Source of the DNA: Antedon mediterranea
Lineage: Eukaryota; Echinodermata; Crinoidea; Comatulida; Antedonidae
Reading direction: 5' to 3'
DNA length: 64,000 bases
NCBI RefSeq assembly: GCF_964355755.1
Contig: NC_092672.1
Location: 5,208,001-5,272,000, forward strand
The first letter of the stretch is position 1, and each line of letters begins with the position of its first letter. Position numbers and translations under genes: made by a program. Below are positions 43,631 to 49,974 of the stretch, piece by piece. Below the pieces are notes generated by a model that was not told the DNA's origin, made no database searches, and saw only the letters and a list, made by a program, of their open reading frames with translations.

Positions 43631-43943
43631 GAATATTTTAAACAGCTTGGAAATGTAGGCATATTGTATTTTCTTAATGATTAGAGGCTGTGCCTGGTGT
43701 TGTGGCAACTGAAAGGGCATTTTTTCTCATGTTAATGGTGATTTTAGGATGTAAATTGTGTTGTAATCAGGAATAAAAACAATTGAAAACCAACTTAACT
43801 TAACATTATTTTATTTTTCATTTTAAATAAATTGATACAGTTCAAAGAATGGTCGGTTCATACCTTGCAAGATTTAATTAAAAATCTTGCAGTTAAACTG
43901 TCAATTTTGAAACAAAATATGTAACGTCATGGTATCTTTAATA

Positions 43944-45394
43944 TCAAACAGTCAGGTTCGGCAGGACATCACCTAACTTGGCATCAATCTTGAGAGTTGC
44001 CAGGTGATCAGCTTTGGTTGGCCCAATGTTGACTATTGCTATGGGTTTATTGCATTCAAATGCAAATTTTGCATATTTATTTGATGAGAAATACTAAAAA
44101 AAAACAGAATTCATGTGTATAATTACTTTTTGAGTAATCCTGCTAAATGTAAAATCGCGAAAATTAATAGGCCCGCGACAATTTTGGGCTTTACAGTAAT
44201 TGTAAAGAGTGAAGGAAGGAGAGTGCGAAAAGCACAAACAAATAAATTCTATTTGACTACTGTGGAGTAGCTTTGCATCAGGCAGTTGAGTAATTAATTG
44301 GTCAGATGTTTTTTCCTACTCAATTACTCTTTGACTCGAAGCTACTCCACAGTTGTCAAATACAATTACAACCCTGTTGGTGCAGTACCTGCTGCTTACT
44401 TGGGCTCGAGTCTAACCACTAGACATCATCGCAAGCTCGGTGGTCTAGAGGTATGAATGCCAGGCTAGTGATCTGGAGGTCGTGGGTTCGATTCCCACTC
44501 GAGAATTACTTGCTCTCAATGTACTTAGTATACAATACAAATTTGGTCAGAGTACGGCAAACATCTGACCAATTAAATAAATTCTAAAAACCTTGATGAC
44601 AGACTTACTTCTAAAGATGTGCCAAGAATCATAATTCTGTCAGCATTTGTAATACTCTTCAGTAGAAATGTCTCTACTGACATTTCAACGTTATCTCCTA
44701 AGAACAATATATCTGGCTTAAGAATTCCTTTACAATTTTCACATTTAGGTATAGTGAACTTCTTCATGTCTTCTTTCAAAAGAACAGGATTTTCTTCTTG
44801 CATATCGAGGCTGAAATTAGGATTGAGTTTGGTAAATCTTTTTTGTAGATCACTTCTTTTTGTGACATAATATTTACAAGACATGCATTTGGCCCTGAGA
44901 AGACTTCCATTTACTTCGGTTACACTCTTACTACCAGCCTTTGAGTGAAGCCCATCAACATTTTGCGTGGCTAACCATTCAATTTTACCCCTCTCTTCCC
45001 AACGAGTTAAAGCTTTATGAACGTCGTTTGGTTTAGGAACTTTCAATCTCATCCACTCTGCCCAACTCTGCTGACTAATTTCATCTGTCTTTTGGAAGAC
45101 ACGTGGTGAAAAGGATCCTCCAACGGTTTTGGTTGAATTATACCAATCAGGAATACCAGACTCTGTCGACAACCCTGCTCCAGTAAGGACGAACAGCTTT
45201 TTAGTTTTATCGATGAAGTCCTGTACGTCCTTTAAATCTTTTTCCTTGAGAGGTTCACTGGTAGGTACACAGTTGTTTGCATTACTTTTTTGATGTAACC
45301 ATGTTTTAACATTCTGCAACGGTAGAAACTTGCCTGGCATTGCTTTTACGCCGTATATAGCAGTATTTCTCAAGGCAGCTGGTATGAAAATCAT
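43944..45394 (-). CDS. SIRT4-like sirtuin paralogue, catalytic His replaced by Asn
   Basis: Two exons, 45394-44609 and 44093-43944, 311 aa, with a GTAAGT donor and TTTTAG acceptor. The fold signatures of a class II sirtuin remain: [12 protein letters not shown] (72-83), TQNVDGLH (143-150), two zinc Cys pairs (170/173 and 218/221), KPDILFLGD, and the C-terminal [14 protein letters not shown]. The catalytic His of the family lies in TELHG; here the peptide is TEVNG, with Asn162. The NAD-loop motif PDYRS reads PDWYNS, so its Arg is gone, and about 9 residues of the following segment (YWARNFVGW in SIRT4) are missing. Frame and splice sites are intact, so it looks like an expressed protein without normal deacylase activity, not a pseudogene. 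It lies downstream of the canonical copy in the same orientation. The basic N-terminus may target mitochondria. Confidence 0.88.
44427..44580 (+). mobile_element. tRNA-Thr(AGT)-like SINE in the SIRT4-like gene intron
   Basis: At 44435-44503 a tRNA-like head has A box TGGTCTAGAGG, anticodon stem CCAGG/TCTGG with loop CTAGTGA (anticodon AGT), and B box GGTTCGATTCC. The acceptor stem is imperfect. A short body follows and ends in TAAATAAATT near the splice donor of exon 1. It lies opposite the sirtuin gene. Confidence 0.6.
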
Positions 45395-46814
45395 TTTGGA
45401 GGTTGCGTGATAATTAATATGACCTGAGCATCAATAAATACAATCTCATACAATCAGTAGAGTTTTTCTAATGGTTTGAATAGGCCTATATGGCAAAATT
45501 TGATATGGTAATGTTACATGATTACTTCCTCATACCAGGGAGATTTTATTTTACTCCTTTCTGATACATACAATTGAATTTAATTGTAAACCGCAGAGCC
45601 ACCATGGCACATTGTCGACAATTTCTCATCCGTGAAAAGTGGTTTCCTGAAAACAGATTGATGAAAAGAAACAAATAAAACATATTGCAATAGTAAGGTA
45701 CATTCCAGCATTTATATCACCTATATATTGTTCTGAAAAGAACTGTTGAGTTTCTCAACGTTTTGATCAATATAACTTTGATCGTCCTCAGGAGTGAGAA
45801 TGCAGGAACTGGACTGGACAAGTCACTCACTCTCACCCAAAACGTTGAGAACAGTTCTTTTCAGAACTATATATATGTGGTGTACCGTAAACTTAATATC
45901 AACATTTGATTTCACCATGCAAACAATATAATAGCATCCACAATATATCATCATGCAACCTATAAATTGTATCATGGTGATTAATTGATTGAACCAAAGA
46001 ATATAAATAGATTGAACCTACCTTCCTAGAGTCTGTTAATTTAATTAATGATGGTTTTTAATCTTGAGTCGGGTGGATCAGTTTAGGACGTCCTCTGGAC
46101 ACTGCCAGCTACAAATATCAAATTTAAGTATGGATATGGTTTACTTGAGTTATATATTATATAGTCCGGTTTAGTCCATTCAACGTACTGGTACCATTTC
46201 ATTCAATACTAAGGAACGTCTGTATATATTGACAGTGTAAATTAATTCAGAATAATCGTATTACACAGCTAACAGTACAAAGTTTAGAGATCAATAATGT
46301 ATATTGTTTATATTTATAGGCCTATTATGTTGGTATAGTATTGGTATAACACATTATTGTCTATGTATTATCACCGACCAAAATGCTTTCATGGCCACTG
46401 TAGAAGTTACACTATTATGAATAGCCGTGTATCGTATGATGGCTGAATACAATACAAAATTTACATAACAATATACAATAGAGTTATGTTATTATTCAAT
46501 TATTCTAATAGTAGTACTAAAACATGTTTATCCTTTATAATATTGTATCAGTCTATCCATCCAATTTTGAACTTTGATTAACCCAAGTTTAAATACTTAA
46601 CTCATTCTAATAACAACAATAAACTACAGTATGCATTAAAAAAACTATTTATTGGTTAAAATATTTAATAAAATATAGTATAAGTTAAAAAACATTCAAA
46701 ATTGTTATTGTTGATCAAAAGATTGACATCTATTTTGGTTTAGAAACTTTCTACTTGTGAATTTCCATAGATTATCTTAAAATATTTATTTTGGCGCATT
46801 GGAATCATCACAAA
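45395..46814. other. spacer between the two sirtuin genes
   Basis: Contains the promoter side of the downstream sirtuin copy and the hammerhead-like palindrome at 45730-45867. The remainder is AT-rich with no recognised gene. Confidence 0.4.
45730..45867 (-). ncRNA. degenerate hammerhead-like three-way junction
   Basis: On the minus strand an 18-bp outer stem encloses stem III (CTCAACGTTTT with AAAACGTTGAG), stem I (GGGTGAGAGTG with CATTCTCACTC, two G-T pairs) and stem II (GATCAA with TTGATC). Stem I is followed directly by CTGAGGA, a match to the hammerhead core CUGANGA. After stem II the consensus GAAA reads AAAA, so the essential G12 is missing. Such ribozymes are common in Penelope-like elements. 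This copy is probably inactive and could be coincidental. Confidence 0.4.
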
Positions 46815-47949
46815 TTAAACAGACAATTCTGGAAGTATATCGCCCAATTTTGCTTCAATCTTGAGTGTTGCCAGGTGATCAGCTCTGGTTGGCCCAATGT
46901 TGATTATTGCTATGGGTTTATTCCATTTCTTTGCAGCTAGTGCAAAACGATAACCTGAGTAAACCTACAGTATAAAAACATAAAAAGCAATTATAATTCA
47001 GCAGGTTTTACGAAAAAATGTAATAGTGAAAGAATCAATGGAAGAAGAAACATTATGCAGTGGACAAACTCTAACAACTTACTTCTAGAGATGACCCTGC
47101 ACATAATATACCATCAGCTTTTTCTACCTGATTCATCAAATATCCAACAATTGTTTTCTCAACATTATCTCCAAAAAATACGATATTTGGCTTAAGAATT
47201 CCTCCACACACTTCACATTCAGGAACGTCAAAATTCTTCATTTCATCCTCTGACAGAAGGGTGTCACCATCCGGTCCCATTGCTCCTTGTTTAGTTATAA
47301 AATCAGGATTCAGTTTTAGCAACTTTTCCTGAAAAATATTTCTATCAGTGACATTATTACAAGATAGGCAGTTGACCCTGTGTAAACTCCCATGTAGTTC
47401 GGTTACTCTCTCACTACCAGCCTTTAGGTGAAGTCCATCAACATTTTGCGTCGCTAACCAGTCGATTTTACCCCTTTTTTCCCAAACAGATAAAGCCATG
47501 TGAGAGGTATTTGGCACAAATGATTTGTACCTCATCCACCCAACGAAATTCCGAGCCCAATACTGCCGCCGTCTTTCAGCACTTTGTAAGAAAGTCTTGT
47601 ACTGCATGGGTCTGCTGTTACTTCGTGCATAGAGTCCTACACCTTCTGACCTGTAATCAGGAATACCAGATTCGGTTGACAAACCAGCTCCAGTAAGGAC
47701 GAACAGCTTTTTCGTTTTGTCGATGAAGTTCTGTACTTTGTTTAAATCATTTTCATTAATAGGTGAACTGGGAGGTACAAATAAATTACTTTTTCTTTCT
47801 GCTTGCACTTCTACTGAATCTCTTCGTTGATATGAGTTTGAAAGGAGTGCTATTGACCGTTTAAAATGTACACTATTATTGCAAGTATTTATGGTGTTAT
47901 TTTGCTTTGGAATGAAATGCTTCAATTTCAGAAAGTTTATCTTTGTCAT
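46815..47949 (-). CDS. SIRT4: mitochondrial NAD-dependent protein lipoamidase/deacylase SIRT4
   Basis: Two exons, 47949-47083 and 46964-46815, 338 aa (human SIRT4 314). Class II sirtuin of the mitochondrial matrix; SIRT4 removes lipoyl and branched-chain acyl groups and restrains glutamate dehydrogenase and pyruvate dehydrogenase. Seen: basic N-terminal targeting-like region; [16 protein letters not shown] (87-102); YWARNFVGW (130-138); TQNVDGLH (167-174); catalytic His186 in TELHG; zinc Cys194/197 and 244/247; the SIRT4-type loop [38 protein letters not shown] at the start of exon 2; and [14 protein letters not shown]. The intron after SSLE matches that of the neighbouring copy. It is the functional, conserved member of the pair. 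Confidence 0.95.
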
Positions 47950-49212: not shown

Positions 49213-49974
49213 CGCCGTGGCTAAAGATACGGTACCGTATTCTAACTTCTGTTTACTAAAGGTACGGTAAAATTGCATTACATCATAACCAGCCAATGGG
49301 GTGCTGGTACGTGTGTGACGTCATCGTATAAGGACTTTGGATTTTTTCATATTGCGAAAACAGTGATCAACCGCATTTTCTTTATGCTTCATTTATCGCT
49401 ATTATCGCCGTCGTGTGTGACAAAAACTAAATGTAGCCTACGTCTGTTATTATTATTATTGAAAAGCCAAAACATGTTGATTTTAATTCTAGAATACAAA
49501 AAACCGTTTCAAAAGAGGCCTAGGCCTACTTACTACGTACTATAACCTCATTATATGAGTTTGTTTGTGTAGGGAAAGCGATGCCAGGCTGGGTCCAGCT
49601 GCATGTGTGCGCTGATTTCTGTGACTCAGACCTGGGGCTACTGTCTAAAAATCATAGTATTTGAGGGCCCCTTTATTGTCCGCATTTGCTTGTTGTTTAT
49701 GGTCACCATTGTAAACAAAGTTTAATAAAAAATATAGGCCTAAAGGCCATTTGGAATAAAACCCTCATCAGCGCACACACACCCATGCAGCATGGCGCCG
49801 CCGACAGGAATTCTCTACATACAACAGACGCGATATGAAAAAAAATCAAAAGTCCTTATACGATGACGTCACACACGTACCAGCACCCCATTGGCTGGTT
49901 ATGACGTAATGCAATTTTACCGTACCTTTAGTAAACAGAAGTTAGAATACGGTACCGTATCTTTAGCCACAGCG
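49213..49974. mobile_element. Mutator-like non-autonomous element with 9-bp target duplication
   Basis: Terminal inverted repeats of about 140 bases: CGCCGTGGCTAAAGATACGG at the left and CCGTATCTTTAGCCACAGCG at the right. They are flanked by the exact direct repeat TTTATTTTA (49204-49212 and 49975-49983). Long inverted repeats with a 9-bp duplication define Mutator-like elements. The repeats contain CCAAT, TGACGTCA and GGTACCGTA motifs. The interior encodes no transposase. A left-half copy lies upstream of ESS2 at 22098-22335. Confidence 0.85.

Follow-up and report, generated by a model that had tools for sequence, protein, structure and literature searches.

A probable catalytically dead SIRT4 paralogue in tandem with an intact SIRT4 gene in the crinoid Antedon mediterranea

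The analysis of the window, the whole 64,000-nucleotide stretch of Antedon mediterranea DNA considered here, has revealed an intact SIRT4 gene on the minus strand and, about 1.4 kb downstream of it, a SIRT4 paralogue on the same strand at 43944-45394, where a sequence-only reading had placed it. The paralogue is a two-exon gene model (45394-44609 joined to 44093-43944) of 311 codons, with the start ATG at 45394 and the stop TGA at 43944. The features of both copies are the following:

47083..47949, minus strand: coding exon 1 of the intact SIRT4, with PDYRSE, QNVD and TELHG.
46815..46964, minus strand: exon 2 of the intact SIRT4, with the stop TAA at 46815.
45395..45606, minus strand: 5' flank of the paralogue, which together with the first 60 codons recurs at C3:13816228-13816616 with 93% identity.
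44609..45394, minus strand: exon 1 of the paralogue (codons 1-262), with a presequence-like N terminus, GAGLS, PDWYNS, QNVD, TEVNG (Asn162) and four zinc cysteines.
44094..44608, minus strand: single phase 0 intron of the paralogue, GTAAGT...TAG, sharing its position with the intron of the active SIRT4.
44380..44570, plus strand: tRNA-derived SINE within this intron, with a tRNA-Thr-like head at 44433-44507.
43944..44093, minus strand: exon 2 of the paralogue (codons 263-311 and TGA).
43810..43815, minus strand: AATAAA polyadenylation signal of the paralogue, about 130 bp beyond the stop.

The sequence-only reading had also described a frame open over both exons and consensus splice sites, and both were found: the spliced product of 311 amino acids has no internal stop, and the GT/AG sites (donor GAA/GTAAGTC; acceptor TTTTTTTTTAG/TATTTC, a polypyrimidine-TAG) are placed as in the adjoining SIRT4. 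The marks of an unprocessed pseudogene (stops, uncompensated frameshifts, broken splice sites) are absent from the 311 codons. Intron loss, the mark of a processed pseudogene, is likewise absent, and since the intron is retained at the parental position in the paralogue, a DNA-level duplication is indicated rather than a retrocopy. The intronic SINE has at least 46 matches elsewhere in the genome (75-94% identity; a lower bound, with 636 first-look candidates). Elsewhere in the window, an inverted repeat around the segment ccaatggggtgctggtacgtgtgtgacgtcatcgtataaggac, mirrored near 49850-49960, was noticed by eye at 49240-49960.

In the 354-Mb assembly that contains the window only two full SIRT4 loci were found, the intact copy and the paralogue. 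A third match (L003) is a 392-bp copy comprising only the 5' flank and the first 60 codons of the paralogue. It lies about 8.6 Mb from the paralogue and, by eye, adjoins the palindrome CATATGATGTCATAGTACGTCATATG and non-LTR reverse-transcriptase-like remnants. A counterpart of the 5' flank was sought upstream of the active SIRT4 and was not found there. The catalytic His is kept in the other sirtuins of the genome in which this residue is readable (QCHG at C6, EIHG at C4). The C4 sirtuin, with intact EIHG, occurs as two almost identical sets of exons separated by about 20 kb (C4:4063361-4064969 and C4:4084089-4086258), either duplicated recently in tandem or doubled in the assembly.

The paralogue matches the Pfam family SIR2 (PF02146) with an E value of 3.4e-36, the value for the active SIRT4 being 2.4e-49. 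Among solved structures it is closest to Xenopus SIRT4 (E 3e-61), with SIRT5 far behind, and Xenopus SIRT4 is also nearest to the active copy. The tree joins the paralogue with the neighbouring SIRT4. By SIR2 domain, nearest family member, tree and intron position, its sequence can thus be assigned by descent to SIRT4 among the class II sirtuins. Structure models were predicted with AlphaFold from exon 1 alone of each copy, the spliced protein not being a contiguous translation; they had a pLDDT of 71.5 and a pTM of 0.67 for the paralogue, and 70.3 and 0.69 for the active copy, so that both are modelled with equal confidence. The best PDB match of the paralogue model was again Xenopus SIRT4, so that the X. 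tropicalis protein (5oj7/5ojn) is the closest solved relative by both sequence and fold, with the zinc module, GAG, QNVD, NIGPT and the C-terminus in common. With regard to a mitochondrial presequence, the N terminus of the paralogue has no acidic residue before position 47 and five basic residues in the first 40, and its hydrophobic moment is low (0.27).

Conservation was assessed in an alignment of the paralogue, the active copy, Xenopus SIRT4 and 19 gammaproteobacterial SIRT4-like proteins. These 19 came from whole bacterial genomes, in addition to one bacterial locus from the search of genome contigs, and were used for conservation only, not as codon-level outgroups. Residue numbering (xSirt4), the acyl-channel list and the named active-site residues were taken from the Xenopus structure paper (PMC5686155). 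The catalytic His160 corresponds to Asn162 in the paralogue (TEVNG for TELHG), the replacement that the sequence-only reading had proposed, and this column is His in all 21 other proteins: the active copy, Xenopus and 19 of 19 gammaproteobacterial proteins. The cofactor loop reads PDWYNS for PDYRSE, with Tyr73 replaced by Trp84 and Arg74 by Tyr85, in agreement with the NAD-loop Arg loss described earlier; none of the relatives examined departs from His, Tyr or Arg at these positions. Gly79 is deleted, and Pro88, Tyr104 (to Ser) and Arg107 (to Glu) are lost. The earlier count of about nine missing residues holds as a total, but not as one segment, being made up of five residues in the cofactor loop and four (NFVG) in the following helix. 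The Sirt4-specific loop (xSirt4 195-206) is shorter by about four further residues (the PDGD area), among them Asp201, Gly202 and Asp203. With respect to the Xenopus protein, the acyl pocket (RRPI, Arg103, Tyr104, Arg107) is replaced; all the listed acyl-channel residues (86-RRPI, Arg103, Tyr104, Arg107, Ala199, Asp203) are changed or gone in the paralogue, and the active copy also differs from Xenopus at some of them. Retained residues are Gly61-Ala62-Gly63, Ser65, Gln142, Asn143, Asp145, His148, Gly259, Ser261, Gly287 and Thr289, together with the four zinc cysteines (C170, C173, C218 and C221), so the Rossmann motif, QNVD, zinc cysteines and C-terminus are kept as had been read from the letters.

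Among 49 near-invariant sites, nine of the ten in the catalytic, acyl-pocket, cofactor-loop and Sirt4-loop set are lost, versus six of 39 elsewhere (Fisher 2e-5); this wider set was fixed partly after the alignment had been seen, and the P values are descriptive. When only those residues that the Xenopus structure paper names were counted, 5/5 were lost versus 10/44 elsewhere (P 0.0016). Four of the six losses outside the active-site set are conservative (Leu to Val, Ser to Thr, and Arg to Lys twice). These comparisons support a selective loss in the paralogue, concentrated at the active site and sparing the zinc module and the Rossmann core. They also bear on an assembly or allele error, by which the His codon or the frame would differ in other individuals: the His to Asn replacement requires one substitution only (CAT to AAT) and was seen in one assembly, but the loss extends to nine near-invariant residues of the active site, and the 5' end of the paralogue recurs in another, partial copy elsewhere, which makes such an error highly implausible.

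The remodelled cofactor loop may have a simple origin. Against the family profile, codons 84-99 of the paralogue score no higher than shuffled sequences (z -0.4); reading this DNA in the +1 frame gives a small improvement (z up to 2.35 over 14 placements), and in the nucleotide alignment an 11-nt deletion directly follows GATT in this loop. A compensated frameshift is possible from these alignments, in which case the loss of Arg and the five-residue deletion are probably one event. The loop change is for the same reason not taken as independent evidence of a selected change. The predicted disorder of this loop was considered as a sign of loss and rejected, because the loop of the active copy is equally poorly predicted.

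From sirtuin enzymology, deacylation by the paralogue product is very unlikely, since it has no general base, no cofactor-loop Tyr and Arg and no acyl pocket. A diverged enzyme that is still active on another substrate or with other chemistry, for example NAD hydrolysis or ADP-ribosyl transfer via the remodelled loop, would be compatible with the retained GAG, QNVD (Asn and Asp) and Rossmann residues; it is nonetheless quite improbable given that the same general-base His, cofactor-loop residues and pocket are all gone, and that His, Tyr and Arg do not vary in the relatives examined.

The dN/dS comparison, which had been suggested as a check of the sequence-only reading, gave a pairwise value of about 0.5. 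Between the active copy and the paralogue (NG86), dN was 0.35 and dS 0.68-0.80, with a dN/dS of 0.53 (95% bootstrap 0.37-0.75), and outside two remodelled loops the values were 0.27, 0.59 and 0.46 (0.30-0.69). With the Xenopus outgroup, 44 changes were assigned to the paralogue lineage and 11 to that of the active copy. The maximum-likelihood protein branch of the paralogue is about 6.6 times longer (0.86 versus 0.13), so constraint on it has been weak; its own-branch dN/dS would be about 0.8 with four fifths of the replacements assigned to it.

A neutral simulation was run near half the pairwise dS over the homologous 266 codons. About 5-10 stops were expected on the paralogue branch and none was seen (P(0) <= 0.0035). 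Outside the loops, at the 118 sites at which the active copy and Xenopus agree, 26 replacements were observed versus 34-62 expected neutrally, a deficit with a P of 0.07 at the shortest branch tried and <= 0.0005 at all others. The replacements were also milder than neutral ones (mean BLOSUM +0.05 versus about -0.8, P <= 0.004). A wholly neutral history of the paralogue is rejected, and the missing stops together with the fewer and milder replacements indicate selection on the frame over most of the time since the duplication. Conversion by the active copy is not needed to explain the open frame, nor is it shown by the data: synonymous divergence ranges from 0.14 to 1.6 between windows of the gene, but in the window with the lowest value dN exceeds dS.

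The same data leave some room for a recently dead gene, one that worked after the duplication, has since been released from constraint and is drifting, and has been dead for too short a time to have lost its frame. The fast protein branch, the scrambled and maybe frameshifted loop and, in the first 60 codons, the 10 nonsynonymous versus one synonymous differences from L003 agree with such a course. These codons, mostly presequence-like, show no sign of constraint in that comparison, and neutral evolution over as much as about the last quarter of the branch would not yet be expected to produce a stop (t about 0.08). Since the active-site losses are selective, the scaffold is spared, the replacements are conservative and the splice sites and poly(A) signal are intact, recent death is regarded as rather unlikely.

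Taken from sequence comparisons, the gene is probably an old tandem SIRT4 duplicate that was protein-coding for most of its history and is now a catalytically dead pseudo-sirtuin, and a pseudoenzyme is a better reading than a decaying pseudogene. The sequence-only reading had preferred a selected pseudoenzyme, as a substrate or NAD sensor or a dominant partner of SIRT4; past retention of the frame and the losses at the active site uphold that preference in part, but not the sensor role, which requires the acyl pocket and the cofactor loop that are lost. An acyl-substrate sensor is disfavoured because the pocket is gone, and an NAD sensor, improbable even if the paralogue is functional, is possible only if the nucleotide binds without the normal closed loop.

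The product of this putative pseudo-sirtuin would be imported into mitochondria and would fold as a sirtuin unable to deacylate. It may then act by binding; by analogy, the most likely role is that of a non-enzymatic decoy or scaffold in competition with the active enzyme for its partners, and, provided that the paralogue is functional, this role has a little less than an even chance. Engineered human SIRT4(H161Y), in which the same catalytic His is lost, is inactive and has been described as dominant-negative (PMC13145358), but it is a laboratory point mutant with an intact pocket; in the paralogue the pocket is missing as well, which favours competition for partners over substrate trapping. 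The excerpt of the 2h4h record describes a Sir2 H116Y mutant crystallised with a p53 peptide and NAD. Class IIa HDACs (catalytic Tyr to His) offer a work-alike, since according to an excerpt of PMC12383505 they keep the deacetylase fold with a substituted catalytic residue and act in co-repressor complexes; they are an unrelated zinc-dependent family, so the likeness to the paralogue is not one of membership. In Chiridota heheva, SIRT4 was reported among positively selected genes (PMC10764150), which is a different claim.

No description of a natural pseudo-sirtuin in animals was found in literature searches covering open-access papers, and that this gene is one, kept by selection as a SIRT4 regulator, is on sequence grounds a tentative and somewhat doubtful proposal. 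The enzymatic activity of SIRT4 is weak and disputed, and part of SIRT4 biology may be non-enzymatic. If the proposal is true, a catalytically dead sirtuin paralogue can hold a non-enzymatic role. A natural copy without catalysis and substrate recognition but with the scaffold kept would serve as a ready-made separation-of-function mutant, from which the SIRT4 surfaces conserved without a need for catalysis could be read.
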